Source: Polaromonas sp. SP1 (GTDB lineage Bacteria > Pseudomonadota > Gammaproteobacteria > Burkholderiales > Burkholderiaceae_C). From it: a DNA stretch of 64,000 bases. Below, one piece after another: positions 4,170-25,240 of this stretch. Under the pieces are notes generated by a model that was given only the letters and a program-made list of their open reading frames with translations, searched no databases and was not told the DNA's origin. The translations under genes were made by a program, and so were the position numbers. How positions within the stretch are numbered: the first letter of the stretch is position 1; the number at the start of each line of letters is the position of its first letter. Where the stretch lies: the NCBI RefSeq assembly GCF_003711205.1, contig NZ_CP031013.1, positions 1-64,000 of the forward strand. Direction: 5' to 3'.

Positions 4170-4502
4170 ATGGCGCGATCCAATACCACTTCAGAGAAAT
4201 CACTCTCGTTACGGCTAATTTTTGCGAGAAATGTCCGCTTGGTCAGAATCCATGCGGGTGTTTCTCAAGAGAACATGGCAGCGGAAGCCGGCTTGGATAG
4301 GACGTTTGTTGGAACACTTGAGCGGGGTTTGCGAAATATCTCCATCGATAACATCGAGTTGATAAGCAAGGCAGTGGGAGTACCAGCACATGAGCTCATG
4401 CATCCCAACTTGCCCGAACTCCGTCAACTAGATACCTCGCTAACGCGCGCCCCACGCACAGAGCGCGTTTATCCAGTGGCCCGCAAAAAAGGGAGCCGGT
4501 AG
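4170..4502 (+). CDS. Small XRE-family regulator resembling restriction-modification controller proteins
   Basis: 110 residues from the ATG at 4170; a TTG at 4161 is possible. The HTH covers about residues 14-75: RNVRLVRIHAGVSQENMAAE, then GLDRTFVGTLERGLRNIS, then ISKAVGVPAHELM. The pattern R-T-F-V-x-x-x-E-R-G-x-R-N-I-S is typical of small C-proteins and related XRE repressors. No restriction-modification genes are next to it, so the resemblance says only what DNA-binding type it is. The C-terminal tail is basic. Its 3' end overlaps the convergent YqaJ-like gene by 34 bases. Confidence 0.78.
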   Translation: MARSNTTSEKSLSLRLIFARNVRLVRIHAGVSQENMAAEAGLDRTFVGTLERGLRNISIDNIELISKAVGVPAHELMHPNLPELRQLDTSLTRAPRTERVYPVARKKGSR

Positions 4503-5149
4503 ATCGGGGGGCTATTTCGCTCAACGCACCGCCAGAATCTGGCCTCCGCCGCCTCCAAGTGCCCAATAAAAGCCTCGTCCCGTTCTACACGGAATATCTT
4601 GAGCTCCCGCCCACCCGCCAGGAGGGCGAGATCCACCGCCTTGTGGCCAGTGACAGCCAGCAGGTGCATGACATCCACCCTGACGTTGCCAGGTACCCCT
4701 TTCTCCCAAGTCGAGCCATCGTCCCTGGCGCCATTTAGGCAGTGAAGGTACTGCACTGCCGGCACGCCAAGCACCTGCCATCGGACGCTCGCCAACATCC
4801 ATGGATACCGAGGATGAGTCAGTACGGTGTCGACACGCCGAAGTTTGTGACCCGTACGCCGGCTATAGACCGACGCAACGAGGGGCTCTAGCAACGTACC
4901 CCAGCAAGTGGCTATCGCATCCCCTTCCTCGTTCTTCAGCGCCGGCTTAATGCCCACCCCGACTTTCTCGCGCCAGAGATCTAACGCCGACCGATGAGGG
5001 TCCAGGCCCATGATGGCAGCAGCATCAGAGCTCTCGATGACTTTCCCATCTATCTCAATAAGCTCCTCGGGCCCCGCCTCCAGAAGCTGAGCTTTCGCCC
5101 AAGCTGGAGCGCCTCCAGCAGAGGTAGCATTCGCAAGTTCGTCGCGCAT
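4469..5149 (-). CDS. YqaJ/lambda-exonuclease-like protein with altered catalytic residues
   Basis: 226 residues from an ATG with AAGGAG five bases upstream; the longer open frame before it reads through the DUF932 gene and is not used. The YqaJ fold is recognisable: SSDAAAIMGLDPHRSALDLW (about 40-59), GTLLEPLVASVYSRRTG (84-100), HPRYPWMLAS (112-121), then VDVMHLLAVTGHKAVDLALL and the FRVERDE strand. In active members WMLA is followed by an Asp, and an E-x-K comes next. Here those places read SVRW and YLHCL, so all three metal-binding residues appear replaced. It is the last gene of a minus-strand operon. It may bind DNA ends without cutting, or be decaying. Confidence 0.72.
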   Translation of the reverse strand: MRDELANATSAGGAPAWAKAQLLEAGPEELIEIDGKVIESSDAAAIMGLDPHRSALDLWREKVGVGIKPALKNEEGDAIATCWGTLLEPLVASVYSRRTGHKLRRVDTVLTHPRYPWMLASVRWQVLGVPAVQYLHCLNGARDDGSTWEKGVPGNVRVDVMHLLAVTGHKAVDLALLAGGRELKIFRVERDEAFIGHLEAAEARFWRCVERNSPPIYRLPFLRATG

Positions 5150-5228
5150 GGCAACTCCTTTCGCAATGATTTGGAACCCGACGAACTGCCCCGTCGGGAA
5201 TGAGAATGCCGGCCTAGACCGGCGGCCG

Positions 5229-6191
5229 TTAAACGACCAACTCCAGGGCCTGTGACAGCGCCCTCTCCTTGAGGCTGGCGCCCGCTCCGAACCACGCAGA
5301 GTCCAGGCGGTAATCCTGGTTCCTAGCCCGGCGCTCGTGGTCAACGAACTGGGTACATGCCTGAAGTAGGCCGAACGCAGTTCCTTTGGCCGAAGCCAGA
5401 TCGGCACCACGGCCCTCCCCTGCAAAGAGGTCCAGCATCTTTTTGACGCTACGCCCATTGGCCAGGGGCTCTGCGGGCTTCGCGACATCCTCGGGCAAGC
5501 CCACTAGCTTGCGCATAAACCTCTCGGCCTCCTTGTCAGAGACCTTGCGTTCGGCCAGGTGCTTCATCCTGTAGATAAATTCCGACCACTGCGAGACGGC
5601 GATACCAAGCTGAGATTTCACGAGGGCCGGCTCAAACGTCGTGCTGTGAGGAACCTTGACGGCGCCTTGCGAACTCCCCAGCGCCACAGCTAAAGTGTTT
5701 TGACACACGACGCGGACGGAGGTATGGGTTGCCGTGGTGGCCAGTGTTCCGTCGCACGAGGTTGCCAGAAGGACGAACCCCTCAATTCGATCCTTGCCAC
5801 GGAGGACCGAAGCGTTGCCCGTTCGCGCCAGTGCCCATAACTTTTTCCCGTTTTTTAGGCACCCTCCCGTCTCCAACTCAAATCCCGCAACCTCCGTGAG
5901 ATCGCGGAAAAATTCCAGTACGGCGTGTGGCTGAACAACGCGGTAACGTCTTGCGACGACCGACAGAGCTTTGTGGTTATCGCTGCGGTAGAGGACCTTC
6001 TGGTCTTCAAAGGTCTGAGTGTTGTTGGGGCTGTCCTCTCGAGGCATAAAACGCACTGGGGCTTCGCAGATGGACCAATCCATTCCTGCTGCGCGCGTCC
6101 AGGTTTCAAGAGACTGATTAGCAGGAAGTCGACTCCCCAGCGTATGCCAGGGAGCTTCGCCAACATAGGCCATTTTTTCGATAGCGTGCAT
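5229..6191 (-). CDS. DUF932 (phage/plasmid-like, TIGR03299-type) protein
   Basis: 320 residues. The N-terminus AYVGEAPWHTLGSRLP and the centre (LYRSDNHKALSVVARRYRVV; HTSVRVVCQNTLAVAL) are the hallmark stretches of DUF932, a family carried by plasmids, phages and integrative elements and of unknown biochemistry. Members often sit beside YqaJ-type recombination proteins, as here, which suggests a role in DNA transactions of the element. The C-terminus is basic and helical. It is in an operon with the zinc-ribbon protein upstream and the YqaJ-like gene 79 bases downstream. Confidence 0.82.
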   Translation of the reverse strand: MHAIEKMAYVGEAPWHTLGSRLPANQSLETWTRAAGMDWSICEAPVRFMPREDSPNNTQTFEDQKVLYRSDNHKALSVVARRYRVVQPHAVLEFFRDLTEVAGFELETGGCLKNGKKLWALARTGNASVLRGKDRIEGFVLLATSCDGTLATTATHTSVRVVCQNTLAVALGSSQGAVKVPHSTTFEPALVKSQLGIAVSQWSEFIYRMKHLAERKVSDKEAERFMRKLVGLPEDVAKPAEPLANGRSVKKMLDLFAGEGRGADLASAKGTAFGLLQACTQFVDHERRARNQDYRLDSAWFGAGASLKERALSQALELVV

Positions 6192-9718: not shown

Positions 9719-12493
9719 TCAATCGTAATTCTGATGTACCGCGTTCTCGATGGGCCGGTAGGCGGACGCTCTGTAGTTCTGATAGTTCTTAGGAATGGGA
9801 ACCGTTGAGGAAACGAGTCGAAGAGTGCCTAACGGGAAGCGCCCATCGCCGGGAAGTGGTTCCATCACATTCTCGATCACCACGGCGTCAACTTCCTCGA
9901 TTCCGTTTGAGAAGCAATGATGGAGACGAGCGCTTCCGTCGATGACCACGAGGAAGCCTGCGTGTCGCTCAAGGACTGGCGGAGTGACAATCGTGCTGGC
10001 CACTCCCGCGAGCTGAACCTCAAGGTGGCCGAAAGGCCTTTTCCCATACTTTGCAAGATCTGACATGAACAGTCGTGTCTGTAACGCCTTGAACTCCTTG
10101 ACTCGCCTCTGCATCACCACAATTTGCTGATTGACGGATATGCGCTGAAGACTGACGGAAGCGTTTTTATACGCAGGAATCGTTTGGAGACGCTGGATCA
10201 GCTTTTGTGGGTCGCTGGCCGCATACTGCAGCGCTAGCGGCGAAGAGCTGGCGCTGGCTGTGTATCTAACGACTTGCTCAGTCATCATTCCGAGAACGAC
10301 TGGGTCGCTGTCAGCTGTGTAGAAGCGAACCTTCTCATGCGTGTATCGGGCGGCCTTCTGCGATCTGTCGGCAGGAAGGTAGGTGAGGATCGTGCAGGCC
10401 CTATCAGTTCCCAAGTCAAACGCAAACCCCACGAAAGGGAGGTCGTCAACAGCTACCGTTACCGACACGCCGAGAAGCTCAAGCAGTTGCCGGCGACGCT
10501 GCTCCTGAGAGTCCGACTCCGTTCTATCTGCTTGCGGGACTACGGCAGTTACCGAAACCCCGCGGCGTAGAAGAAGCAACAGGCTCGGGAATACGTAATC
10601 AAGCCAGTACGTGTCAGGACCTACGGCAAGAAAAGTGTGCTCGCACGAAGGCATTTGTCGAACAAGAAGCAACATCTTCTCGTCGAAGCCCTGAAACTCA
10701 TGCGCAGTTACGTCTCCGTGTAGCGCGTTCAGTCGCTCCCCCTCAATGAAGTTGCGCACGCATCTCACGCCTCTTCCATACAGAAAACGCTTGGCATCTT
10801 CATTGACCTTACCGAAGTCTGTCGATTGAATTGCACCGGTTTCGATGTTTATCGGATAAACGTTGGGCTGGAGCTGAAGCTGTATTTCAGACGCGCTATC
10901 GATGACCGTGTCAGCAAGCCGTTTGATGAAGTCAGAAAGGTCTGGAACAGACCTGGCGCCCTTGGTGTCTGCGATCAGACGAAACGCGAGGATCCGCGGA
11001 AGAACGTCCCGTTCATCGTTGCTGCCCTTCTGCTTGTTCAAGACATAAGCGGGAAGATTGGAAACGGCGCCACCGTCGAAGAAAATCGACGATCCTGAAG
11101 GGGCCGGCTGGAAGAACATCGGAATCGTGCACGAGTGCCTTACCGCCAGGGTGACGCTTTCCTCGGGTGTCGTCTCAGGAGACCATATCTTGGGTTTCCC
11201 GGTAGAGAAGTCTGTAGCAACAACGTGCAATGGAATCGGCAACTCGGAGAAGAGAACGGGCACCGTGCTGCCGCCCTTCGGGCGCACTAGTTCCACGAGC
11301 CTACTTTCGATCCAATTGCCTAAGCTCGCCGAATTATGTAAGCCACCATATTTGGCAACATCGGCAAGGGTGCGGAAGCGCCCCCAGGTCAAGGGCCGGA
11401 GCGCCCGAGCCCAAAAAGGCAATCGCTTGGTGAAGAAGATCTCTTCCTCGTCCGGCTTATCTAGCAGCGGCACAAAATCAAGCTCTTGAAGATGTTGCCT
11501 GAGATAGCCAGGTGTGGCGCCCGCGGCGACAAGAGCTGCGACGATTGAGCCTCCAGAGGTTCCCGCCACTTTGCCAAAGGTGATGCCCGCTCGCTTCGCC
11601 GCAGCAAATCCACCTGCGTGAGCGGCCGCACGAACCCCACCGCCCTCGAACACTCCCCAGCAGTGGACAAAAAGCTCTGACTTCGGTCTCCCGCCTGATC
11701 CTCCCTGGCGAATCCGCTCAAGCAGACCGCGCGCGCGCTCCTTCAGGCTATCGGGGCAGTAAAGGTCTAGAGCTCCTTCCACCTCGCGAGCCGTTTCCCG
11801 TTTTTCGCAGATGTCTTGTACGAAGTCACATACCGCTTCAGAGGGCTGAAGGGCGAGCCGGGTGGCCAGAATCACGGCCCGAGCTGCCTGGATCTTTGGC
11901 TGGGCCACTACATCGGCCATGAAATCAATTTGCCTCTGCTTGAGCGCCTGCCCAGCGCCTGCATCGACAACCGAAGCGTGACCGTTGCACTGAGCGGGGA
12001 AAAACAATATGGCGTTGACGTCGTAGTCGGCCGTCGCAGGAAGCGCCTCGAACGTTGCTTCCTCATCTCGCAACCTGAAGAGGAACGTTTCCTTTAGGCT
12101 CCAAGCCTCAATTGGCACTCTGGCGCCTCTGATGCCAACACCTCCAAACGGGTTTGTTTTAGCATCCGAAGGGAAGAAGTCAGCGATGGGTTGCGGGCTA
12201 TCGACAACGAAGTCTATGTCGCGAGAGGGCGCCGTTTGTCCGTGAAGAACCTCGAACAATCGATCGCGAGCCCATCCGCCAAATATGGCAACCTTTGCCT
12301 TGGCTTCGCCGATTTTCGAGAAAATCTCGGCAAGCCGGGCATCCTCCTGCAGGAGCTCGTCGAACGCTGTTTGCATTGCGCTCGTAGCACGCTTCAGGTC
12401 TTCTGTATCTAGAGACACGTAGGCGAGACGGGCTCGCTCAGGCGGAAGTTGGACGGTCTCAATGTTCGAATTTTTTTCCGGTGCTACCGTCAT
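9719..12493 (-). CDS. Three-part fusion: nucleotidyltransferase head, patatin phospholipase, PLD-like C-terminal region
   Basis: 924 residues from an ATG with GAGGGAG upstream. (1) Residues about 60-165 resemble the polA/CCA-type nucleotidyltransferase head: FGGWARDRLF with GG 72-73 and RD 76-77, then RDIDFVVD (D92, D94), and ADYDVNAILF in the place of the usual RDFTINALAY. (2) Residues about 277-490 are a patatin lipase: EGGGVRAAAHAGG (oxyanion loop), GTSGGS with nucleophile Ser313, and DGGAVSN with Asp473, so the Ser-Asp dyad is intact. (3) The segment from about 610 (FLAVGPDTYWLDY; LLRRGVSVTAVVP) resembles a PLD-like fold without clear HKD motifs. Patatins are known membrane-degrading effectors in phage defence. 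Joining one to a nucleotidyltransferase in a single chain suggests a self-contained sensor-effector. The substrate of the head is unknown. Confidence 0.8.
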   Translation of the reverse strand: MTVAPEKNSNIETVQLPPERARLAYVSLDTEDLKRATSAMQTAFDELLQEDARLAEIFSKIGEAKAKVAIFGGWARDRLFEVLHGQTAPSRDIDFVVDSPQPIADFFPSDAKTNPFGGVGIRGARVPIEAWSLKETFLFRLRDEEATFEALPATADYDVNAILFFPAQCNGHASVVDAGAGQALKQRQIDFMADVVAQPKIQAARAVILATRLALQPSEAVCDFVQDICEKRETAREVEGALDLYCPDSLKERARGLLERIRQGGSGGRPKSELFVHCWGVFEGGGVRAAAHAGGFAAAKRAGITFGKVAGTSGGSIVAALVAAGATPGYLRQHLQELDFVPLLDKPDEEEIFFTKRLPFWARALRPLTWGRFRTLADVAKYGGLHNSASLGNWIESRLVELVRPKGGSTVPVLFSELPIPLHVVATDFSTGKPKIWSPETTPEESVTLAVRHSCTIPMFFQPAPSGSSIFFDGGAVSNLPAYVLNKQKGSNDERDVLPRILAFRLIADTKGARSVPDLSDFIKRLADTVIDSASEIQLQLQPNVYPINIETGAIQSTDFGKVNEDAKRFLYGRGVRCVRNFIEGERLNALHGDVTAHEFQGFDEKMLLLVRQMPSCEHTFLAVGPDTYWLDYVFPSLLLLLRRGVSVTAVVPQADRTESDSQEQRRRQLLELLGVSVTVAVDDLPFVGFAFDLGTDRACTILTYLPADRSQKAARYTHEKVRFYTADSDPVVLGMMTEQVVRYTASASSSPLALQYAASDPQKLIQRLQTIPAYKNASVSLQRISVNQQIVVMQRRVKEFKALQTRLFMSDLAKYGKRPFGHLEVQLAGVASTIVTPPVLERHAGFLVVIDGSARLHHCFSNGIEEVDAVVIENVMEPLPGDGRFPLGTLRLVSSTVPIPKNYQNYRASAYRPIENAVHQNYD

Positions 12494-12659
12494 TCGGAAA
12501 CTCCCTCGGTTCGTATAAGCTCTCTAGTCTAACGAGTGCTACCAGACGCTCTCAGCGTTTCTGCCGACATCATCCTAAGTTTCCTGCCCGCTTAGCGGGT
12601 CGACCTAGAACGGCCGGAACGCCAGAGGGCACCTAAAACTGTGGTGACAAGCCGAGGAG

Positions 12660-12851
12660 TTAAGGGGCTTTGCCGTGTCCGGGTACGCCAGGAGCGGGTG
12701 AGCGGCCACGACCTGACTCAGCGCCGGTAGTACTGGTTCGCCCGCCCCAGCCTTTGCCACCACCCTGAGGCCCGCTACCCCCACCACCGTTTCCACCTTT
12801 ACCCCCCTGGGCGCCGCCTGTCTTTCCACCGCCTGTGCTACCTTTTGCCAT
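12660..12851 (-). CDS. Small glycine-rich basic protein
   Basis: 63 residues from an ATG with AAGGTG upstream (a GTG three codons earlier is also possible). About 40 per cent Gly with Lys, Ser and Pro (for example GGKTGGAQGGKGGNGGGGSG), so it is probably disordered. It lies 166 bases before the patatin fusion on the same strand and could share its transcript. Low complexity prevents any family call. Confidence 0.45.
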   Translation of the reverse strand: MAKGSTGGGKTGGAQGGKGGNGGGGSGPQGGGKGWGGRTSTTGAESGRGRSPAPGVPGHGKAP

Positions 12852-12920
12852 GAAAATCACCTTTTACGACACCCTGAGCCACCCGAATGGCGGCGTCCTT
12901 GTCGGGCGTCAGGATTAATC

Positions 12921-13991
12921 ATGCAGCCGACGAACTCAACCGACAGAGGAAATGTGGAAATGCATATGCCAACCGTTGGGCAGATTCTTCAAAATGGAAT
13001 GGGCCAGCCATTTGATCTGCTGATCCTGCGTCGGTCGATGAAGTTGTTCCCAACCTCCTTGGGGCTTAAGCCGCTAAAAGCTGGCCTTCCGTCTGACGAG
13101 TTCCTGGCGAATCTGCTGAGCGGGCGCCGGACGCACCTGGCCATAATCCGCAATGGTTTCGGGAAGGATTTCAAGAACTTCCAGAACTATGCGCTGCAAA
13201 GGGTGAAGACGACGCCAGAAATTCGCGATCGGCTTCTCGAAGCCGTGGATGGAAACGAAGAACTGCTGGAATTTCTGGCGAACAGAATGCGTGAAGATGT
13301 CTTAGGCGCGCAACTTGCACAGCTCACTCGGGCTAGTGAAGGTACGCTATATCAAGTGATGCGAACTCTCTCTTCTGGGTCGTTGAAGTGCGAGCACTGC
13401 CAGGCCGAATTGATCTCCAGACCAACGAGGTGGTGGTGTGAACAGCACTGCGAACTAGGTGAGGCGGAGTATCGGTTCGTCGATCGGATGCTGTACGACG
13501 TACTGGCCACTACATTGCTTCCCTTGGTCTTCAGGTCCAACTGGGCCCAAAAGAAAGAGGCCGCAGAGCATCTTGCTTCCCTGTGCAATCCAGGCGCCCA
13601 CGTATTCAAGAATTGGCTCGACCTGGTGCGGCACGACTACCGGGCGAAGGACTTGGCGGCTCTGGCCACCCGGGCGGGCCTCAGCGGTCCGTCCCCAGAC
13701 AGCCACCTGCAGCGATGTGCCCGCGGCGACATGCTTACCGCCGATACGATTCAGGGAGTCACGGCGCGGCTGAAGGACCCAGCGCCGCTGCGAAACCTCG
13801 GCATGCAATCACGTGCTCTAGCATTCGCAATTGACTTCCTTGTCGCAGCAGACAGTGACGCATCTTCCATGGGCTGGCCCGATGCCCAGGCTATTGTGAA
13901 AGCTCGGATTCTTCAGTTGTTTCAGGATCTGCAGCTAAGCTTCCTAGCGGGCGTTCGACTAGCAAAGGCGTCAGCCGAGGTTCCAGTCTGA
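12921..13991 (+). CDS. Unknown protein with an internal zinc-ribbon-like Cys cluster
   Basis: 356 residues, mostly helical. A Cys/His cluster, CEHCQ followed 15 residues later by CEQHC (about 157-177), looks like a zinc knuckle in the middle of the protein. The N-terminal third contains a basic helix pair around LLSGRRTHLAIIRNGFGKDF. The 3' half has a possible helix-turn-helix-like stretch (GDMLTADTIQGVTARL). No catalytic motif is visible. It is transcribed alone, divergent from the glycine-rich gene and the patatin fusion. In a defence island it could be a regulator or a recognition protein, which is inference. Confidence 0.6.
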   Translation: MQPTNSTDRGNVEMHMPTVGQILQNGMGQPFDLLILRRSMKLFPTSLGLKPLKAGLPSDEFLANLLSGRRTHLAIIRNGFGKDFKNFQNYALQRVKTTPEIRDRLLEAVDGNEELLEFLANRMREDVLGAQLAQLTRASEGTLYQVMRTLSSGSLKCEHCQAELISRPTRWWCEQHCELGEAEYRFVDRMLYDVLATTLLPLVFRSNWAQKKEAAEHLASLCNPGAHVFKNWLDLVRHDYRAKDLAALATRAGLSGPSPDSHLQRCARGDMLTADTIQGVTARLKDPAPLRNLGMQSRALAFAIDFLVAADSDASSMGWPDAQAIVKARILQLFQDLQLSFLAGVRLAKASAEVPV

Positions 13992-14033
13992 TTTCTGTCG
14001 GCAAATGACTGCTGCTGCGAAACCGATCAAAAA

Positions 14034-14070
14034 GCTGACTAGCGACAATATTGCATTATCGATAGCTGGC
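14034..14070. repeat. Island intergenic repeat, copy 2
   Basis: Aligned without gaps to the copies at 9591 and 17611. It lies between two convergent genes. Similarity with copy 3 continues upstream for about 40 bases (an AATGAC-GCT-CTG-GAA series), so the element may be longer than the 39-base core. Confidence 0.6.
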
Positions 14071-14152
14071 AAAATTTTGGTATTCATCACCGAACGAATT
14101 ATTTCTAGCGGCGCAGTAGCCAGACCCCACCGATACGCTATTGACTCCAAGG

Positions 14153-14851
14153 TTAGCCTAGGTTCCAGCAGCCACCACGGTATTGATACGTGCCTTGCAG
14201 GATCCCACCAATCCATTCCACCAGCGTTGCGCCCTTACCCAGACCGAATTGAACAGGCACTGGGCTTTCCGCATTCAGCATTGACACCGGTAAACTTGGA
14301 AGCATGCCGGTGCCGATGCCACCTAGGGGAAACTTGTTCCCATATTGCTCTCGCAGAAGCTTGCGCGCAGTAGCCTTTGCCAAGGTCATGAAGGTTTCAT
14401 GTCGGACCAACCAATAACACTCGACCGAAGAAGCCGCGTATCGCTGTTGCCTTCGCTCGAAATCCCGCAAGTGCTGGTAGGAGCGTTGGAGCTCAATCGC
14501 TATTGTTCGATCAGGCATGACAAATAGAATGTCGGCCTCCCACTTGTCACCTACTGGGGTAGAGCCAGGTGCCTCAGTCCGCGCAGTGATGCCCCTGCTT
14601 GCGAGAGCCGCCAATACCGCGGCTTTTCCATCCAAGTGCCACTTCGTTTCCGGTGCAGTTGCGCATTCGTCCGTCAGATGCGAAAAGAACGGCAAGCCGT
14701 TGATGCTCGTCTTTAGAACGGCCGGAGCGCGGCAGCAAGGCATCACGAAGTCCCCTAGCTGTGCCGATTGTTTCAGGGCGTCCCACTGAGGACCAGATAA
14801 CGCACCAGCGTCCACGGGTCGCCCGTCGCGTGTCCATGCCGATTGCGTCAT
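14153..14851 (-). CDS. CoiA-like nuclease-domain protein
   Basis: 232 residues. The N-terminal part has the zinc-binding pattern of CoiA-type proteins (VMPCCRAPA, then GLPFFSHLTDEC), followed by ETKWHLDGK. The nuclease-like core is WEADILFVMPDRTIAIELQR (about 107-126), with Asp and the E-x-Q that replaces E-x-K in this family, then a basic helix and CYWLVRH. CoiA is a competence protein whose relatives are predicted PD-(D/E)XK-type nucleases and often occur on mobile DNA. No competence genes lie beside it, so the role here is probably tied to the island. Confidence 0.72.
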   Translation of the reverse strand: MTQSAWTRDGRPVDAGALSGPQWDALKQSAQLGDFVMPCCRAPAVLKTSINGLPFFSHLTDECATAPETKWHLDGKAAVLAALASRGITARTEAPGSTPVGDKWEADILFVMPDRTIAIELQRSYQHLRDFERRQQRYAASSVECYWLVRHETFMTLAKATARKLLREQYGNKFPLGGIGTGMLPSLPVSMLNAESPVPVQFGLGKGATLVEWIGGILQGTYQYRGGCWNLG

Positions 14852-14886
14852 AGTTCCCCTTGAATGAAAAATGCCGGCGACCCGGT

Positions 14887-15702
14887 TTAGCTCGGCGTCC
14901 AGACCCTAGTGGACCGGCGCAAGGCTCGCTCATTGGGCCAAGCAGCCAGACGCCGCTCTACCGAATCGTGTTTTCGGCGGAACGAGTTGCACCTGACATT
15001 TTCCAGGTCTTCCCAGAAGTCCAAGACCGATTGAATCATTTGCTCAAGCACAGCTTGGGACAAAGTTACCTTGTCAAATGAGGGATGCTTTGGCCAGTCA
15101 GTTGGAATATTGATCTCGAAAGGCCCCGCCTTATACGACTCACCAGGCGGGAACCAGTTCCACCACAATGATGGAGCCAACTCATGCACCCGTTTAGCAG
15201 ATCCACCATCGCCGTGGCGAACTGCGTTTCCGAGGTTCTGCAGCAGATCGAGGTCTCCATAGGAATCAAATGCTTCCATGGGAAGTCCCAAGAGTCTCTC
15301 GAAATGCCATTGCAGCCCTTTGGTGCCAGCATGCTTTGACCAAGTGGCCTTGTACAGGAGCCCCACACACTCAGCACCGCAGAGCTGCTTTTCACGTGTC
15401 ACCAGCAACCTACGCAAACCCCGCTCCCACATAGCTTGAACTGTGAGCAGGTACCCCTGCACAGTGGCATGGTGCAACTCCGCCAGATCACTTTCAAAAA
15501 ATACGGCCCCCTCATCCTCACTTTGGGTGTTGTCGTCGATCTCGCGATCCACGGCCAGTAGTGATGTGCGGACTACGGAGTCGCGGAATAGCTCAAGCGC
15601 ACGAACATGCGCTCCTGGGAAATCCAATGAGTCATGGTCTAGCCAGGCGTATGTACTGATGTCAACGTCGCTTGATTTGCCGCTTCGTGTGGCGTCATCC
15701 AT
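14887..15702 (-). CDS. Unknown protein with a HEPN-like motif
   Basis: 271 residues from the ATG at 15702 (MDDATRSGKS, with GAGGGG upstream); the longer form adds 28 residues without a ribosome site. The protein is helical. It contains LQNLGNAVRHGDGG (about 180-193), which resembles the conserved end of HEPN-type domains (N-x-x-R-H-G-D-G). The usual R-x4-6-H catalytic pair is not clearly present, so an RNase activity is uncertain. N-terminal sequence PGAHVRALELFRDSVVR is also helical. Neighbours are the CoiA-like nuclease and an RNase H, all on the minus strand. Confidence 0.5.
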   Translation of the reverse strand: MDDATRSGKSSDVDISTYAWLDHDSLDFPGAHVRALELFRDSVVRTSLLAVDREIDDNTQSEDEGAVFFESDLAELHHATVQGYLLTVQAMWERGLRRLLVTREKQLCGAECVGLLYKATWSKHAGTKGLQWHFERLLGLPMEAFDSYGDLDLLQNLGNAVRHGDGGSAKRVHELAPSLWWNWFPPGESYKAGPFEINIPTDWPKHPSFDKVTLSQAVLEQMIQSVLDFWEDLENVRCNSFRRKHDSVERRLAAWPNERALRRSTRVWTPS

Positions 15703-15892
15703 ATGTCCCCTCTTTAATAGATTCTGCTTCACTTGGTCTAGTTGAACGCCACCAAAACTCGCAAGCGGGAGCAGGAAAGTCGGCATGACTGTTCTGTAGC
15801 GCCGACATATGGCAGCTCCTAGCCAGCAGCAACCGGTGCGATACGGCTGCCGTTCCTGTCCGCTCTAAGAACGCTGAATGCTATCGACAGAC

Positions 15893-16717
15893 TTAATATC
15901 TGTAGTCGTCAGGGTTCAATTCTTCAATCACTTGATCAATGCCGGGGTGACCTCGATCAGAGTTCAGGCGCACCAGAAGGCACTTGTTGCGACTGAGTGA
16001 GTCTTTGTACCAAACGAAATCTACGTCCTTATAGGATGAGTCCTCCCGGTCAATCACTTCAAATCGATATTCATACTCTCTGACATACCTGTCGTATTTG
16101 GTAGAAATTATTCTGATTTTGACAGCACGACCATCGAATGTGACGCAGCCCCGCTTGGTCTTGCGATCTGACCACTTGCGTGCTGTCTGGCTAACCGACA
16201 GTGGCTTGTGGAACGGCATGGCTGCCGACTTCTTTGCAAGCTTGTCGGCCGCTCTGTTGTAGATGTTCGACTTGTGCCCCTTCACCCACCTTACTTCAAC
16301 GCGAAGCGGGCACGCAGCGACCTCCTTCTTTAAGCGTTTCCAGAGATCAATGTTCTTGACGGGCGTTCCATTCGCGCCCCGCCATGCTCTCTTGGGCCAG
16401 ACGTTCATCGCACTGACGAAGTTATCGGTGACGTACTGGGAATCGGAGAAAAGCAGAATTCTTTTGAACATGCTCAAGTCGGGGAAAAAGCGCATGGCTT
16501 CCTGCAAACCGACTATGCAGGCCTGGATTTCCATCTCATCGATAGTTGCGCTCTGATAGCCAGTTGGTGCGTGCTCGCTGGTCTGGGGATCCCCAGCCTC
16601 GTCCACCCACATTAGAACTACACCCACACCCGACGCTCGCTTTTTTCCGGGGAAAGACGAGCCGTCCGTGTAGATGTTCAAAGCCTCCTCGTCATGAATG
16701 CCGCCTTGAGTGATCAC
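15893..16717 (-). CDS. RNase HI-like protein with an added C-terminal domain
   Basis: 274 residues. RNase H residues are in place: D18 in IYTDGSSFPG, E63 in DEMEIQA, D92 in LFSDSQYV, H148 in WVKGHKS and D158 in NRAADKLAKK, so it should cut RNA in RNA-DNA hybrids. Ordinary RNase HI is about 150 residues. Here about 110 more residues follow (after SVSQTARKWSDRKTKRG), predicted beta-rich, with no family I recognise. It is not the housekeeping gene, given its island position and low similarity in the tail. Such a tail may give substrate or partner specificity. Confidence 0.78.
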   Translation of the reverse strand: MITQGGIHDEEALNIYTDGSSFPGKKRASGVGVVLMWVDEAGDPQTSEHAPTGYQSATIDEMEIQACIVGLQEAMRFFPDLSMFKRILLFSDSQYVTDNFVSAMNVWPKRAWRGANGTPVKNIDLWKRLKKEVAACPLRVEVRWVKGHKSNIYNRAADKLAKKSAAMPFHKPLSVSQTARKWSDRKTKRGCVTFDGRAVKIRIISTKYDRYVREYEYRFEVIDREDSSYKDVDFVWYKDSLSRNKCLLVRLNSDRGHPGIDQVIEELNPDDYRY

Positions 16718-16869
16718 AATTCCTCCGCCGAGCTTCTGGGTTCTGTACCTTAATGCCCTGTCCTGCTTAAATCAAGGGTTCACCTATGGGCAAACACAAT
16801 CAATCGCCACCGCGCGCCGCTCTGGCTTTAAGCTTGGCGGAAAGGCGTGCCCTTCATTCATGTTTATCA

Positions 16870-16930
16870 CGCGCCCGTTGGACGCCTGCTTCTGGCCCGA
16901 CTGCCGCTGTCGAGACACAGGAGTCGTTCA
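16870..16930. repeat. Degenerate intergenic repeat (GCTTCTGGCCC type)
   Basis: The block around 16880-16915 shares GCTTCTGGCCCGA with the sequence at 17579-17591. It lies between two minus-strand genes and has no coding character. It appears to be another member, or a fragment, of the element that includes the 39-base island repeat. Confidence 0.35.
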
Positions 16931-17410
16931 ATAAACTCGTAGCACCTCAAACTGCTGTCGGATTAGAGCGACCTGTATCGACACCTCATCACCCTCGCAT
17001 TTGCCCAGAATGGCTCTGCCCAAAGGGGCTTCGCTGCTGATGACCTGAACGAGCTGAGTGCCGCTGACCAACTTCATGCTGCCCCCATCCGGCCCGAGAA
17101 AGAGCAGTTGCTGCTTGTCGTCGGAATCGACTAGGCAGACCAGCGCGCCGAGCTGTATACCTTTGCTGGAGTCGTAGGGGCTCGGGCGGAATTGGCGCCA
17201 ATTGGCCATCGCCTGGCGGATGCCTTCGGCGCGCCGAGCTTGGCCGGTGGCCAGGTATGCGGCTTCGAGTCCCAATGTGTCGTATTTGTTTTCGGCGATG
17301 TTTTCTTCGTGAGTCGCCGTTTCATGGGCCGCCCGCATTGCCTCTTCGGCTTGCAGCAGGTCTTCGGCGAGCCTTTTAAGCACCTGCTGCTGCAGCAAGA
17401 ATTTATCCAT
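16928..17410 (-). CDS. GreA/GreB-family transcription factor-like protein
   Basis: 160 residues. The N-terminal half (1-80) is a coiled coil rich in Gln, Glu and Ala (QQVLKRLAEDLLQAEEAMRA). The C-terminal half fits the GreA/GreB FKBP-like domain: LGALVCLVDSD, then SEAPLGRAILGKCEGDEVSI, which matches the P-L-G-R-A-L-L-G-K-x-x-G-D-E-V signature. Gre factors rescue backtracked RNA polymerase through the coiled-coil tip. The acidic tip residues cannot be confirmed here. Island-borne Gre-like proteins may act on transcription of the element; that is inference. Confidence 0.75.
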   Translation of the reverse strand: MDKFLLQQQVLKRLAEDLLQAEEAMRAAHETATHEENIAENKYDTLGLEAAYLATGQARRAEGIRQAMANWRQFRPSPYDSSKGIQLGALVCLVDSDDKQQLLFLGPDGGSMKLVSGTQLVQVISSEAPLGRAILGKCEGDEVSIQVALIRQQFEVLRVY

Positions 17411-18130
17411 GATGAAAGGTAGGCATCTCGAAAAAGCGGGGGCAGGTCCTGATTATGAAGGGCTCCATCGAGCCGCCGACCAGATAGCACTTTCGACAGC
17501 GCGCCGTAAATCTTTCAAACGGCCAGTACGATCCGGCAAGGAAGACTTTTTACGCGGTTTAACTTGCGCGAATGACCGCTTCTGGCCCGAAGGCAGTCGG
17601 TCGGCCAAGTCGGCTGACTAATGACAACGTTCGATTATCGCTAGCTCGCCAAGTGCGAGCACTGCAGCACTTGCACTCAGATAGTTCAAGGCGGGAGATT
17701 CGGTGCACGTTCGCCTGCTCCACTTCGGCGACATCAGCGTGCGTCCGGAAAAGGGAGCGCAACCGGCCGGCGAGCCCACCGCAATCAAGACCAAGCCCTA
17801 GTCGAACCGGACGTGAAGGAGGCTACCTGGTGAAGCGCTGGTACCTTGAGCAATGTGCTTCGACCCTGGCCCAACTTGGTTGTGGGTTATGGGCCAAACT
17901 CCTCAACAAGCCGGGCAGGACGTCATGAACCAGATTTTCAGACTTATGATTTTCGTGTCCCTTTTGGGTCTTCTAGATCTAGCAAATGCCCTATGACGCC
18001 GCCTCCAATACGTAGGCGAAGATGCGCAAGGTCGACGAAATTGGACATTTATCGATCTCTCCACCATTACGGCATGGGGCGTCGTCGCCCGAATGACCGG
18101 ACGGCCTGACTTGTACGAGGGCTTTCACCG
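17411..18130. other. 720-base region without a convincing gene
   Basis: It contains repeat copy 3 (17611-17649) and the GCTTCTGGCCC block before it. A 33-residue open stretch (GTG at 17702 to a TAG at 17801) has plausible coding character but no known match and only a weak ribosome site. The rest has no long frame on either strand. It separates the GreA-like gene from the ATPase cassette and may be a graveyard of deleted genes. Confidence 0.45.
17611..17649. repeat. Island intergenic repeat, copy 3
   Basis: Third ungapped copy of the 39-base repeat (see 9591 and 14034). It shares CGGCTGACTA, GACAA, TTCGATTATCG and TAGCT with the other two. It lies upstream of the ATPase cassette. Confidence 0.6.
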
Positions 18131-18136
18131 TACAAG

Positions 18137-18179
18137 AAATCCGTCAGACTCTTAGATCAGATCCATATTTCTTGAGGAA
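18137..18179. repeat. Left imperfect direct repeat flanking the ATPase cassette
   Basis: Starts with AAATCCGTCA and ends with TTGAGGAA. A similar segment in the same orientation lies at 22897-22945, directly after the cassette. Both end blocks are identical between the copies; the middle is diverged and differs in length (43 against 49 bases). Confidence 0.5.
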
Positions 18180-18273
18180 TGTACGCGACTCCCCGCTCGC
18201 TAACAACTGCAGACTCACTTATCATCCAGGGAAACAGCTTGGCTCATCAATGCTAGGCATTCAGGGGGAACCT

Positions 18274-18927
18274 GTGGGACATTCGCTCGATCACACCACA
18301 CGCAGGCGCGATGCGGTACGAATCTTGTTCATTCTTGACCAAGCTGGCTCGGCCCCGGGGAGCGGCGCACCGGCTGACGCTATTTCCGTCATAAAGGCCG
18401 AGAAGCGGCTTCAGGCGCTCGATTTTTGGGTGAGAAGCCCTGACTACCTAGCCGCAGAGCTGATGCATCTGCATGTACAGCATCCGGACGAGGGATTCTT
18501 GGACGAGGCTTTTAAGGTGATGCAGGGGGACGAGCCGGATGTTCGTCGCATGCAGATGATGCGCTTCTTGTTCGGCGCCTGGGAGCAAATCGACGACTCA
18601 ATGTCGCAGTTGATTTCCCTGGGTCTTGCAACCATTAAGCGGACCATAAAGTCGGACGGAAAGGTCGGCCGAACTGATTTCTTTCTCTTGGATGCGGGCC
18701 GCACACGAGCAGTGGAACTTGCAGCCTATTCATCCCATCTCGCCTGGTATAGAGACCGCGCTGCTTTGGTGGCGCGTGTGGCTGGCTCTGGCTCGGGCGA
18801 CGATCTAAAGACCAGACAGTATGCCCAGGCCGAGTACCAAGGTGCTCGGTGGGGACATGTGATTGGCCCCATCAAGCATCGAGTACTGAAGCGCCTTGAA
18901 GAACTCAAACAGGGAGTAAATCCGTGA
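18274..18927 (+). CDS. Small component of an ABC-type defence cassette (middle-component-like, winged-helix)
   Basis: 217 residues from a GTG with GGGGG five bases upstream; ATG 18250 or TTG 18172 would add residues without a better ribosome site. The sequence DAVRILFILDQAG, then RLQALDFWVRSPDYLAAEL, then GLATIKRTI and TDFFLLDAGRTRAVELA, fits the small middle component of ABC three-component (ABC-3C) systems, which carry a winged-helix-like fold and pair with an SMC-like ATPase. Its stop overlaps the ATPase GTG start (GTGA), so the two are made in step. The assignment is from pattern memory and gene order; a profile search would decide it. Confidence 0.6.
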   Translation: MGHSLDHTTRRRDAVRILFILDQAGSAPGSGAPADAISVIKAEKRLQALDFWVRSPDYLAAELMHLHVQHPDEGFLDEAFKVMQGDEPDVRRMQMMRFLFGAWEQIDDSMSQLISLGLATIKRTIKSDGKVGRTDFFLLDAGRTRAVELAAYSSHLAWYRDRAALVARVAGSGSGDDLKTRQYAQAEYQGARWGHVIGPIKHRVLKRLEELKQGVNP

Positions 18928-20852
18928 CCACCACATTTGCTGCGAAGGTTGCCCAACGGGCAGGACGCTCTCTAGATGAGGTGCGAGCCGTGCTCGCAGA
19001 CCGGCACGTCGTCGATGCGCCTACCCCTGCCGTTTCCCGCCCGTTGCGATTGAAGAAGCTGCATTTCAGCGGTAACAAGCATGTGCACCAGCGCGTTGAG
19101 CCGTTCAGCTTCGAATGGGAGCCTGAGCAGCAGGGAGTGAATGTGATAGCTAGCGATGGGAACCTCGTTGGAAAGTCCAGCATTCTTCAGACCGCGCTCT
19201 GGGCGATCCGGGGCGAGCCAAAGGCTCTGACTGCGACGGTACAGGGCTGGATCGAGCATGTAGTCGTGGAGCTCCACGCCGGCGACCGGCATGTTCGGGT
19301 GGATTTCAACGTCGAGGAAGGAGTTCCACGAGGAGCGATAGAACTTCTTGGCAAGGATGGAAACTCCGTCCATTCGATGCCCTTCCTTACCGGGGACATG
19401 TTCAAGTCCCAAATGAATAGCGTGATGCTTGAGGCACTGGCTCTGGAGCCGATTGCGACCTCCCGCGATGTGCCGTCGCTAGAAAAGACCGTCATGTACA
19501 CCGACGGGTGGCTTGCATATACCGGTGCCTTTTTGTTCGACAGCGACAGCAATGCGCTCATCGGCGAGCACGTTGGTAACGACCTCGCGCAGCGCCTGCT
19601 TCAAGTCTTCCTGGGCATCCCCTGGGCGACGACCCTGTTCCAAGCCAGAGCAGCGAAGCGAGTTACGGAAGCGCTGGTTCAGTCTCGCAAGCGACGCCTG
19701 GCACAGCTTGGTGACCGCTCGGTCGAGGATTTGAGGGCGAGGTTGTTGGCCATTGAGCAGCAGATTCTGGATGGATCGGCTCAGCAAAGGGCCTTGGCCG
19801 ATTTGGAGACAGCGCGCAGAAAGTTTGACGCATTCTCGGACAGCGTCTCTCGATTGAAGTCCACCACGACCGTCCTCGACGCTGAGATCATTGCTGGTAA
19901 TGAAGAGCTAAACAATAAGAAGCGCGCCCTCTTGGAGATCGAGGAAGAGATGGCGGCCACGCGGTTCTTCGGGCGCTTATCTCCCACATGTTGCCCTCGG
20001 TGCACTCGTTCCTTCGACAAGAGGCGGCTCGACAACGAAAAGACATCTGGAGACTGTTCGGTCTGTCTCACCCACGTCGAACAGGAAGCCGAGATTGACT
20101 ATGAGGCCTTGAAAGAAAGCTTAGCCAAAGACGTTGCGAAGATGGAGAAGCTTCTCAAGGCGGTCACAGTGAAAGCTGAGGAGTTGAGAGGCGAGTTTGA
20201 ACAGGCACGCAAAGACCAGGAGGGCGCGGCACGAGACATGTCCCGTCTGGCCGCTGGTGGGACTGCACAGGAGGAGCAAAAACTGCGGCTCGAAGCCGCC
20301 CGTATTGAGGGCATGCTAGAGGCTGTCTCCCGACTTGTTCAGACTGACTCCGGGGAAGAGTCCGATTTGGCGATTCTCGACGCCGCTACCGACGTAGCTT
20401 CTGAAGAAGTAAAGGCAGCGGCAGAAGCGATGCTCGAGCGAAGTGGAGAGCTGATCTGCATCTTGGTGAGGCGGCTCGGCATGGGCGACGTCGAGAAGGT
20501 TGTCCTAAAGCGTAACGGGAATGTCGAGATACACAAGGGCGGCGGCATTTCGTACTTTGGCCGACTCTCTCCGGGTGAGCGTCTTCGTGTACGAATTGCT
20601 ACTGTGGTTGCGCTACTACAGGCTGCCCAGCAGTTCGGCGCTGGGTGCCACCCGGGGTTCCTCATCATCGACTCGCCTGCCAAGGAGGAAATGGCCGATG
20701 CAAACGTTGAGGAGATGCTTGAGGCACTTGCTGAGCTGTCGCGCTCGGTAAACATTCAGCTGTTCGTGGCTTTCCGCGGAACTGAGCGGGCGCTCAAGCA
20801 CTTCCCTGAGGATCACTGCCTCCTCGCTCGCGAGGGCGAGACGCTCTGGTGA
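18924..20852 (+). CDS. SMC/Rad50-like ABC ATPase of the defence cassette
   Basis: 642 residues from a GTG with GGGAG upstream. Walker A is GNLVGKSS (about 79-86), the signature is GRLSPGERLRVR (about 546), and Walker B is FLIIDSPAKEE (about 579). Between them are long coiled coils interrupted by a four-Cys cluster (CCPRC, then CSVC, about 355-380) that may bind zinc like a hook. A 40-residue N-terminal extension precedes the first strand. This is the layout of the RecF/Rad50/SMC-type ATPases in ABC-3C and Lamassu-like anti-phage systems, which sense unusual DNA ends and license an effector nuclease. The next two genes supply a helical protein and a PD-(D/E)XK nuclease. Confidence 0.82.
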   Translation: MTTTFAAKVAQRAGRSLDEVRAVLADRHVVDAPTPAVSRPLRLKKLHFSGNKHVHQRVEPFSFEWEPEQQGVNVIASDGNLVGKSSILQTALWAIRGEPKALTATVQGWIEHVVVELHAGDRHVRVDFNVEEGVPRGAIELLGKDGNSVHSMPFLTGDMFKSQMNSVMLEALALEPIATSRDVPSLEKTVMYTDGWLAYTGAFLFDSDSNALIGEHVGNDLAQRLLQVFLGIPWATTLFQARAAKRVTEALVQSRKRRLAQLGDRSVEDLRARLLAIEQQILDGSAQQRALADLETARRKFDAFSDSVSRLKSTTTVLDAEIIAGNEELNNKKRALLEIEEEMAATRFFGRLSPTCCPRCTRSFDKRRLDNEKTSGDCSVCLTHVEQEAEIDYEALKESLAKDVAKMEKLLKAVTVKAEELRGEFEQARKDQEGAARDMSRLAAGGTAQEEQKLRLEAARIEGMLEAVSRLVQTDSGEESDLAILDAATDVASEEVKAAAEAMLERSGELICILVRRLGMGDVEKVVLKRNGNVEIHKGGGISYFGRLSPGERLRVRIATVVALLQAAQQFGAGCHPGFLIIDSPAKEEMADANVEEMLEALAELSRSVNIQLFVAFRGTERALKHFPEDHCLLAREGETLW

Positions 20853-20869
20853 GGTAGAGTATTCCTTCC

Positions 20870-22033
20870 ATGTCTCAGGTACCGAAGATCGTTCAACAGC
20901 GCATGATTGAAGCGCTAGAGATGGGTCGCGGCTTGGCGGCTCGAGACTTCCCCGAAGCTGAGCTTATGGGGGAGGCCGGCGCTCTGGGTTCGTCCGTCCT
21001 GTTTGGAGACTTCGTAGACCTCCTGCTCCTTCAATGGGGAGATCTGGACAATCAAAACGCCGCGGCGAATGCGATTTGTGAGGGTTTCAAGCGCAACTCC
21101 CATCGTGAGGCATTCATCCACGCCGTTGACGCGCTGGTAGAGGCGGACATCAACGATTTCGCGCCGTTTGCAAAAGCGCTCGATTCACGCGCGGGAGACG
21201 GCAGCACCTCGATGCACATCCGTGTCGAGGCCGTGGCCGGTCTTACCCGACTCGCGCTCCGGTCGTCAAGGTGGACAACGTATGCCGGCGCTGGAGTTCT
21301 TCGTCTCCTTGATGAAGAGGATGACTGGGTGAAGGCTAAGCTTTGCAGGCTAACGTCGATCCTGCACGATCAGCTTGCCTGGGACCAGGCTGTTGAATCG
21401 CTGAAAACGCTGACGAGTTGCACAGCCTGTGCTGCAGAAGCACGGCAAGAATTGGGGTTCGTAGAGATGTCCGCCGCGTTCCAAAGCGACAACCTTCTAT
21501 CCATGGTCGCCCATCTTGCCCAGTCAGCGACATGGTTCGAACAGTGTGCACGCTTTGCAGAGGACGCGCCGAGGGCTCGCATGTACGGAGTTGTGGCGGG
21601 TGCCCTATCTAAGTCACTCAATGGCGACTTGACTGCCGCCTTGGATGTCGGCGAACTGGGTAACGATGCTCAATGGGTCGTCAACTACGGCCCGCCAAGG
21701 GCAGGGGCGTCTTGGCTCGCACCACCAGTCGAAGCTGAGCTTGAGTGGATACCGTTGCTTGCTCCTCACGACGGTTCGGCCGCAGTTGATCCGTTTTCAC
21801 TATTCGCTAGCGCTGTGCAAGTATTTGAGAAAGTCCGCGCGGTCCAGGTCACTATCAACGGTAAGCGGGAGTACCGAGCGCCGTCTTTCAGTACATTGAC
21901 TGAGCGTGCGAGGGCGATGGGACTTGGCCGCACTTGGCTTGGCAACCCCACAGCCTCTAACTTATCCTCAGAAGGCCGAGCTCGCCTTGAAGCTGTTTTT
22001 AGGCCGCCGGGAGCATCGCCGGGAAAACATTAG
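20870..22033 (+). CDS. Helical-repeat-like protein of the defence cassette
   Basis: 387 residues, start ATG 17 bases after the ATPase stop. The first 260 residues are regular amphipathic helices (for example FVDLLLLQWGDLDNQNAAAN; RVEAVAGLTRLALRSS), which looks like a HEAT or TPR-like solenoid. An SCTACAAEA Cys pair lies near residue 185. The C-terminal part is less regular. No enzyme motif is visible. Between an ATPase and a nuclease gene, a scaffold or recognition role is plausible. It ends 38 bases before the nuclease start. Confidence 0.6.
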   Translation: MSQVPKIVQQRMIEALEMGRGLAARDFPEAELMGEAGALGSSVLFGDFVDLLLLQWGDLDNQNAAANAICEGFKRNSHREAFIHAVDALVEADINDFAPFAKALDSRAGDGSTSMHIRVEAVAGLTRLALRSSRWTTYAGAGVLRLLDEEDDWVKAKLCRLTSILHDQLAWDQAVESLKTLTSCTACAAEARQELGFVEMSAAFQSDNLLSMVAHLAQSATWFEQCARFAEDAPRARMYGVVAGALSKSLNGDLTAALDVGELGNDAQWVVNYGPPRAGASWLAPPVEAELEWIPLLAPHDGSAAVDPFSLFASAVQVFEKVRAVQVTINGKREYRAPSFSTLTERARAMGLGRTWLGNPTASNLSSEGRARLEAVFRPPGASPGKH

Positions 22034-23815: not shown

Positions 23816-25027
23816 CTAAATGGACCTAAGGCTATCAAGATAATCTGCCCACTTTTGCATCATCAATACTCTATGCGTCAGGTACTGTGTTCGGTTGTAC
23901 GCCCTACCGTTCGCATCTTTTACTGCATGAGCTAATTGCGCTTCAATGATCAAGGGATCGCAATCTAGACGCTCGGCTAACATTGTTCTCGCCGTTGCTC
24001 GGAATCCGTGCCAAGTCTGTAGCTCCGAGGAGTATCCAAGCGATATCAGAGCAGTACGAACGGAATTTTCAGAAATAGGCCGCTCATGATTTCGCTCGCC
24101 TGGAAACACGAGCTTGCTATGCCCTGTAAATGGATGCAGGCCGCGCAAAACTTCGACGGCCTGCCTTGCAAGCGGTACGAGGTGAGGCTCACCGTTTTCC
24201 TTGCCCTCCACCCCTCGCTTCATCCTGGCAGCTGGAACTGTCCACAAAGCACCCTCCAGATCGATTTCTGCCCAGGCAGCACCCCTGAGCTCACCAGGGC
24301 GCTGAAAAACCAATGGAGCCAATTCCAAAGCTGCCTTCACGATCACACCGCCACGGTAGCCCTTTATCGCCCGAAGCAACACCCCAAATTCCTCAGGATC
24401 GGTGATGGCGGCGAAATGCTTGCCTCGATAGGGAGTTAGGGCACCCTTGAGACTAGAGGTGATGTCCTGCAAGACCCGGCCGGTTGCCACAGCGTATTGC
24501 CAGACCTGCCGGCACAGCATCAACTCTCGATCGGCAGTCTCCACCGCACCACGCGCCTCTACTTTGCGCAAGGTAGCCAGCAACTCAATAGGCTCGATCT
24601 CCTGCATGCGCCGATCACCTAGCCAAGGAAACAGATCACGCTCAAATTGGCGCAATGACCTATCCGCGTGAGCCGGGCTCCACTGCGGCAGCTGCTTGGC
24701 GTACCACTCCAGAGCCACTGCGCGGAACGTGTCACCCGTCGGATTCGTTGCCCGCAGCTTGGCAATTTTTCTGACCTCTACTGGATTCTGGCCACTAGCC
24801 TTTTGAAGCCTAGCGGTGTCCCGCGCCTTGCGGGCCTCAGCCAAGCTAATTGCCGGATAACTGCCGAGCGCGAGGCGCCCTTCTTTGCCGTTAGCGTACG
24901 TCTTCCAGAACCAGCGCTTGGAACCAGCAGGACTGACTTCTAGGTACAAACCGTTGGCGTCGGTAAACCGCGCACGCTTCTTTTCAGGCGGGCACAAAGC
25001 GTTCTTGCAGTGCTTGTCGGTCAGCAT
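23816..25027 (-). CDS. int: P4-type tyrosine integrase of the ssrA-associated island
   Basis: 403 residues. The N-terminal DUF4102 arm-binding domain (LTDKHCKNA, then TDANGLYLEVSPAGSKRW and LGSYPAISLAEARKARD, 1-90) is followed by a core-binding domain (100-200). The catalytic domain has R243 (FQRPGEL), H340-x-x-R343 (WHGFRATART), H367 (QLAHAV) and Tyr377 (RAYNRTQYL), so the protein appears active. The start at 25027 lies 214 bases from the end of ssrA, on the side of the island. P4-like integrases commonly insert at tRNA and tmRNA 3' ends, which fits the location. Confidence 0.9.
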   Translation of the reverse strand: MLTDKHCKNALCPPEKKRARFTDANGLYLEVSPAGSKRWFWKTYANGKEGRLALGSYPAISLAEARKARDTARLQKASGQNPVEVRKIAKLRATNPTGDTFRAVALEWYAKQLPQWSPAHADRSLRQFERDLFPWLGDRRMQEIEPIELLATLRKVEARGAVETADRELMLCRQVWQYAVATGRVLQDITSSLKGALTPYRGKHFAAITDPEEFGVLLRAIKGYRGGVIVKAALELAPLVFQRPGELRGAAWAEIDLEGALWTVPAARMKRGVEGKENGEPHLVPLARQAVEVLRGLHPFTGHSKLVFPGERNHERPISENSVRTALISLGYSSELQTWHGFRATARTMLAERLDCDPLIIEAQLAHAVKDANGRAYNRTQYLTHRVLMMQKWADYLDSLRSI

Positions 25028-25189
25028 CGGGATTCGGCGTAAAACGGGGTACTTTTCAGAGGGAAACCGGGGAACAACTTTGAATTATGCAGTACTTTTC
25101 GATTTTGCTCCCCGGTTTGTTCCCCGGTTTTGCGTTGGCTACCCTTGAATTTCGTTAAATCGTGTTGGACGCAAAAATGGCGATTTACC

Positions 25190-25229
25190 AATGAAAAAGG
25201 CCGTTTACTGAGCTTCAGTAAACGGCCTT
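25190..25229 (-). terminator. Intrinsic terminator past ssrA
   Basis: A perfect 14-bp stem (AAGGCCGTTTACTG at 25197-25210 with its complement at 25216-25229, 5-base loop) is followed on the minus strand by TTTTT. It starts 12 bases past the tmRNA 3' end. Its position between ssrA and int means it either is the original ssrA terminator or was brought in by the island. Confidence 0.85.
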
Positions 25230-25240
25230 GGACGTTATAG

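Follow-up and report, generated by a model that had tools for sequence, protein, structure and literature searches.

Two kinds of described pairing between a nucleotidyltransferase (NTase) and an effector provide precedents for control by restraint. MntA restrains HepT by modifying it, and the motif of MNT proteins reads GSx10DxD (both according to excerpts of PMC7641770), while in Hailong and Panoptes it is the product of the NTase that suppresses the effector, the suppressing product of Hailong being single-stranded DNA (according to excerpts of PMC12657230). By contrast, the patatin CapV serves CBASS as an effector that cGAMP activates, as the title of its PDB entry states. In the system described here, an NTase is coupled to a patatin phospholipase. 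The titles and abstracts searched contained no report of an NTase–patatin pair, although one may already have been described together with the iHKD and ParB-CE families discussed below.

The gene lies in the window – the whole stretch of 64,000 nucleotides of Polaromonas sp. SP1 DNA that was analysed – and had initially been annotated as a single chain joining an NTase, a patatin and a PLD-like region. The single fused chain is confirmed: the 924-aa open reading frame (ORF) is real, starts with ATG according to ORF analysis, and has a likely ribosome-binding site 7 bases upstream of that ATG (Table 1). It is single-copy in the 4.5-Mb genome, the sole extra hit being a weak match over patatin residues 282–344.

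Table 1. Features of the fused NTase–patatin gene, in window coordinates.
Feature	Coordinates	Strand	Residues	Basis
Whole gene: NTase – patatin – iHKD – C-terminal (perhaps ParB-like) region	9719..12493	(-)	924 aa	
GAGGGAG, likely ribosome-binding site	12501..12507	(-)		read by eye
Class II (CCA/poly(A)-polymerase-type) NTase, head and neck	11669..12493	(-)	1-275	hhalign, PDB matches
GGWxRD...SRDID motif (G72 G73 R76 D77 D92 D94)	12212..12280	(-)	72-94	40/40 rows
Glu129, third active-site acid	12107..12109	(-)	129	D/E in 40/40; aligned to an acid of the A-adding enzymes
Patatin phospholipase domain	11042..11653	(-)	281-484	Pfam PF01734, E 2.4e-27; PDB PlpD, 3.1e-14
Ser313, nucleophile (GTSGG)	11555..11557	(-)	313	121/121 among matches listed
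Asp473 (DGG)	11075..11077	(-)	473	121/121 among matches listed
iHKD, PLD-like, without conserved HxK	10265..10606	(-)	630-743	Pfam PF24402, E 2.1e-35
C-terminal region, perhaps ParB-like	9722..10186	(-)	about 770-924	P838 P839 E842 G853 R856 invariant

That the N-terminal segment has an NTase fold is supported by profile comparison and by its motifs rather than by a direct domain match. Searched against Pfam at E up to 0.1, the window protein gives no NTase match, PolyA_pol included. The 40 sequences of our NTase profile (36 stand-alone and 4 fused) fare somewhat better: PolyA_pol matches 20 of them at E up to 1 (best 3.1e-4; 14.3 bits, against a curated cut-off of 23, in the row for which bits are shown), and six match an aminoglycoside adenylyltransferase family and five DUF6099. 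Compared by hhalign with PolyA_pol sequences (21 loci, of which 18 gave usable sequence), the profile reaches a probability of 96.6% (E 6.7e-10, 187 columns); seven other comparisons (two with CD-NTases, one each with an MNT-like protein and ParB, and three with the remaining parts of the same protein) do not exceed 1.9%. As the CD-NTase controls (1.9% and 0.2%) and the MNT-like control (0.2%) are single sequences, the fair contrast is that between 5.9–36.2%, obtained with five single PolyA_pol sequences, and 0.2–1.9%. The best PDB matches of the profile, over head and neck, are A-adding enzymes under entries named 'poly A polymerase' (4wby, 1vfg and 4wbz, E 0.0085–0.017), and 10 of the 13 matches at E up to 10 are to poly A polymerase, tRNA nucleotidyltransferase or polynucleotide adenylyltransferase, the remaining three being unrelated.

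Judged by these comparisons, the N-terminal part is a head and neck of the class II type, that of the CCA/poly(A)-polymerase enzymes, and not a CD-NTase. GGxxRD and DxD, both features of class II heads, are present in all 40 rows; the glycines, arginine and aspartates named in the initial annotation (G72, G73, R76, D77, D92 and D94) are invariant in this set, as are W131, T136 and R205. The same annotation had misplaced the third acid: position 156 is D in 29 rows and V in 11, and the acid is instead found at position 129, which holds D in 36 rows and E in the other 4. The D of the DFTINA motif is missing in 11 of the 40. The tRNA-binding body and tail of class II enzymes are absent, for the stand-alone forms stop after the neck and, in the fused ones, the patatin comes next. 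Membership of CBASS was rejected on the ground that the NTase is not a CD-NTase; with the low CD-NTase scores and no match to SMODS (the CD-NTase synthase) in the organism's own genome, the early judgement that this is no ordinary CBASS stands. The same genome also encodes two ordinary PolyA_pol proteins.

The effector part was followed through 121 aligned rows of at least 600 aa, drawn from a first search and from a second one (the best 120 of 248 relatives). Among the matches listed, the Ser313/Asp473 dyad, rightly described as intact, is present in every effector, the GGG oxyanion loop in 118 of 121 (with three gaps) and the last G of DGG in 119. The PDB matches include PlpD (3.1e-14) and the CapV structure (E 0.2), and PADLOC phospholipase effector profiles match the patatin weakly (1.6e-4). 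The PLD-like part proposed for the C-terminal side proved to be Pfam iHKD, which was found in all 24 relatives scanned; what that proposal overlooked is a further conserved region beyond it (residues about 770–924). An active iHKD was considered and rejected: although 20 of 46 rows contain an HxK at some point in this region, none of its near-invariant columns is an H or a K, and the domain is predicted to be dead. The five C-terminal residues of Table 1 are invariant in all 121 effectors among the matches listed and align with the ParB box when the region is compared by hhalign with 12 ParB sequences, a comparison with a probability of only 2.6%. Pfam ParB-CE matches the window protein below threshold (E 0.055; 13.9 bits against a cut-off of 23), as it does 3 of 24 relatives (best 0.015), so that the region is perhaps ParB-like – a lead, not a finding. 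Both the iHKD and the ParB-CE families reportedly come first from Nicastro et al. 2023.

A one-gene system, as first proposed, is an apt description of the window gene but not of its family. The first search returned 25 long and 21 short proteins, together with one unrelated patatin, and the short ones begin at, or slightly ahead of, the patatin motif. Of the 123 relatives with known contig sizes, 31 have the fused form and the other 92 lack the NTase part. Where the missing half may reside is illustrated by a plasmid of Kovacikia minuta, on which a separate NTase ORF (262 aa, 11914–12702 of the inspected locus) comes first and overlaps by 4 bp an effector ORF of 668 aa (12699–14705), the two matching the window protein at 32% and 37%, respectively. 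A search with NTase sequences gave 53 matches, of which 47 are apparently complete and end after the neck; stand-alone NTases of 240–285 aa number 43 (47 complete, 51 in the set). Retained among the 51 are P0049, P0089 and P0096, likely pieces of fused proteins, and the shortened P0098, none of which enters a matched pair. Two more of the 53 hits, P0099 and P0100, derive from fused proteins of which they are fragments; the former is labelled eukaryotic, which looks like contamination.

For 12 of the 92 effectors of two-gene size, the contig size exactly equals that of the longest contig of one of the 51 NTases, compared with a chance expectation of 0.2 on average and 3 at most in 2000 jitters; Kovacikia is among the 12, and none of the 31 fused rows pairs in this way. 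The pairing uses the longest contig of each cluster, and may therefore miss pairs or, rarely, invent them; six pairs were first spotted by script and six by eye, and all 12 were confirmed by script. Effector and NTase distances are correlated over the 12 pairs (r = 0.915, P = 1e-5), over the first seven (r = 0.974, P = 0.0004) and over 17 rows, 10 of them fused (r = 0.97, P = 1e-4). In 9 of the 12 pairs, though not in all, effector and NTase point to the same nearest relative. These correlations support the pairing by equal contig size; on their own, they show joint inheritance, not joint action. None of the 11 two-gene-size effectors of one clade, three of them named Klebsiella or Pantoea, was paired with an NTase that we found, so some members may have no NTase, or one too divergent.

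The fused state changed at least twice on a careful tree of 47 effectors, with a single change in none of 200 bootstrap trees, and three times on a quick tree of 115 rows, where the third change depends solely on P0145, a long branch with GGWVRD in its head and a GTSGG of its own in its patatin. Two or three changes are most simply read as repeated fusion, because fused rows are the minority, with fusion followed by fission as a possible alternative history.

Among the genomes sampled, the family is seldom met, although one cluster named Klebsiella pneumoniae comprises 133 sequences. The iHKD cut-off is passed only by the query genome among 369 genomes, and only the query genome matches in sets of 398 and of 399 genomes. 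Of 399 genomes of the host's family, none but the query matches beyond the patatin, and two others match the patatin part alone. No phage record was found, nor any viral contig in searches each limited to a few peptide patterns, and one plasmid match, that of Kovacikia, is full-length; the gene was rejected as phage or plasmid cargo. An E. coli collection gave no DNA match.

Its surroundings had been read as an ssrA island with a helicase relic and nuclease genes nearby. A tyrosine integrase (23816–25027) does adjoin ssrA (25241–25627), but searches for a duplicate of the ssrA end found none: the window was scanned with a 25-base pattern allowing 3 mismatches and the genome with a 20-base pattern allowing 1. 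The nuclease genes were recovered, with CoiA nuclease and RNase H domains in Pfam, and the helicase relic was not identified. The same window carries LmuC, LmuB and LmuA of Lamassu (18172–22033). In Limnohabitans, an MmeI-type IIG restriction-modification gene lies 41 bases upstream and a SoFic-like gene is also present; the Caballeronia locus has genes for a type ISP enzyme, an HNH nuclease and type III restriction and methylation; and that of Kovacikia has cas6 and a gene matching the PADLOC candidate PDC-S09, read as MNT, to which inspection by eye added HEPN, cas4 and cas1, the HEPN-like ORF having no PADLOC match. Defence matches at the Ramlibacter locus are all weak, namely a partial mad2-like methylase (9.1e-11) and a viperin-like match (2.3e-6). 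Recognised defence genes thus occur at four of the five loci inspected, among the neighbours scanned and without a random-locus background; in the only control, 0 of 10 ORFs from the rest of the same window gave a defence match. A conserved partner gene near the fused form was sought and rejected: at E 1e-4 the five loci share no neighbour, which makes the fused form look self-contained.

The coupling of NTase and patatin is, from the sequences compared, well supported: parts that are linked, that change together and that in some lineages are fused very likely act together. The proposal of a non-CD-NTase joined to a patatin, as a candidate defence system, stands and gains from the separate-gene relatives and the correlated change; its defence side draws on the neighbouring genes at four of the five loci, and the idea that a sensor shares the chain with the effector is a hypothesis. 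Because neither active site is broken and a patatin left free could harm membranes, something should hold the patatin. Our leading reading, which we regard as evenly poised between right and wrong, is that of a suicide phospholipase controlled by a class II NTase, that is, an NTase–effector conflict module present in this window as a fusion of its two genes; both its anti-phage role and the direction of control are what we infer. If the NTase is in control, restraint seems somewhat the better bet over activation, given the precedents of restraint by NTases and a fusion that favours action in cis. The NTase would add nucleotides to the effector, or join them into a short product retained nearby; iHKD together with the C-terminal region would read the state of this modification or product, and in healthy cells the patatin would be held off. 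A phage that strips away either of these, or that depletes the nucleotide pool, would free the patatin, which would then attack membrane lipids and kill the cell before the phage matures. More tentatively, and with somewhat less confidence than in the conflict module as such, the family could form a class of anti-phage signalling systems, with a CCA/poly(A)-polymerase-type NTase, in place of a CD-NTase, Cas10 or MNT, supplying a nucleotide signal or protein modification, a ParB-like, nucleotide-binding region and the dead PLD reading it and the patatin executing. One chain would then hold synthase, receptor and effector, and an ancestor with two genes would have given rise to it on more than one occasion.

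Activation in the manner of CBASS, whereby infection would switch the NTase on and its product would activate the patatin through the C-terminal region or iHKD, is the strongest competitor, though still an unlikely one. The CapV precedent, the weak PADLOC phospholipase match and the intact NTase active site all suit it; yet the NTase is of another kind, the neighbours scanned contain no CBASS gene beyond that weak patatin match, and a diffusible messenger would give little reason to fuse. Less probable again is a plain toxin–antitoxin or addiction module that keeps mobile islands and has no anti-phage role, with the NTase neutralising the patatin as MntA does HepT (excerpts of PMC7641770). The NTase-first order and overlap of the two Kovacikia genes and the integrase–ssrA island are what such a module might show, but the halves of a single chain could not decay apart, which would weaken simple addiction. 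We give little credence to a housekeeping role as a lipid enzyme or an RNA-tailing one: the superfamilies of the two catalytic parts do include housekeeping members, and the genome has its two ordinary PolyA_pol proteins, but the distribution is patchy, down to the query alone beyond the patatin part in the host's family, and the island setting and the defence genes at most of the loci argue otherwise. A secreted or injected patatin effector like ExoU, VipD or VpdC is scarcely credible and was rejected, for although NCBIfam VpdC matches at 6.9e-12 (44 bits against a cut-off of 1000) and ExoU and VipD are among the PDB matches, all three span the patatin motifs only, and a partner NTase and cyanobacterial members do not fit.

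If the suicide-phospholipase reading is right, the class II NTase fold, familiar otherwise from tRNA and RNA tailing, would join the controllers of bacterial suicide effectors. The fused gene, apparently equipped with every part, would be an unusually simple object for studying the gating of a phospholipase by an NTase: a single protein, with two active sites that can be killed and one lipid assay.

Set beside known systems, the NTase shares GGxxRD, DxD, the third acid and the neck arginine with the class II CCA-adding, poly(A) polymerase and A-adding enzymes, but it lacks the body and tail of the CCA-adding and poly(A) polymerase enzymes. The relatives share a domain with Pfam iHKD proteins, whereas the ParB-CE match, unlike those of Pfam ParB-CE proteins, stays below threshold. 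Hailong is likewise described as an NTase–effector pair, and its effector is not known to be a patatin. In MntA/HepT, too, a small NTase gene neighbours that of an enzyme which is potentially toxic and which the NTase could restrain by nucleotidylation; here, however, the motif is GGWxRD...DxD and the partner is a lipase rather than a HEPN RNase, Pfam giving no HEPN match in the window protein. CBASS with CapV, finally, also combines an NTase with a patatin in what is, in our case, a candidate membrane-killing defence, but the present system differs from it in having a class II NTase instead of a CD-NTase, an additional iHKD and C-terminal region and, in a quarter of its relatives with known contig sizes (31/123), all of these parts fused into one chain.

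The fused gene, which joins a class II nucleotidyltransferase (NTase) head to a patatin, lies between the YqaJ recombinase and DUF932 open reading frames and the tyrosine integrase adjoining ssrA. The tag encoded by this ssrA is ANDERFALAA. No second copy of the ssrA end was found either in the window (25-base pattern, up to three mismatches) or in the genome (20-base pattern, up to one mismatch), and the window begins at contig base 1.

Two neighbouring products are without a Pfam match: that of the divergent 356-aa reading frame, which also has no counterpart in the other four loci compared, and the 299-aa member of the CoiA-nuclease/RNase H trio. The reading frame next after the Lamassu genes, of 224 aa, likewise has no Pfam match.

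Features of the window and of two other loci
Locus	Coordinates	Feature	Remarks
Window	4469-6191	YqaJ recombinase, DUF932	
Window	12921-13991	356-aa ORF	Divergent from fused gene
Window	14153-16717	CoiA nuclease, 299-aa ORF, RNase H	All minus strand; Pfam
Window	18172-22033	Lamassu LmuC, LmuB, LmuA, consecutive	E 1.4e-69, 4.4e-167 and 1.4e-34, the last limited to the first half of the profile
Window	23816-25627	Tyrosine integrase, ssrA	Adjoining
L009 (Kovacikia)	14894-18698	MNT-like gene, probable HEPN, cas6, probable cas4, probable cas1	Directly 3' of two-gene form
L037 (SMODS sample)	871-2704	Patatin-like ORF, then immediately ORF taken by eye for CD-NTase	

Among the relatives, the protein records P0113, P0114 and P0126, labelled Klebsiella pneumoniae and Pantoea ananatis, are effectors of two-gene size, and one cluster among them holds 133 member sequences. 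In their clade of 11, no effector lies on a contig equal in length to that of any NTase found. A record labelled eukaryotic (P0099) contains a fragment of the fused protein, near the Limnohabitans sequence as judged by eye, and is probably contamination.

Finally, the patatin-like gene pair of L037 is apparently ordinary CBASS.
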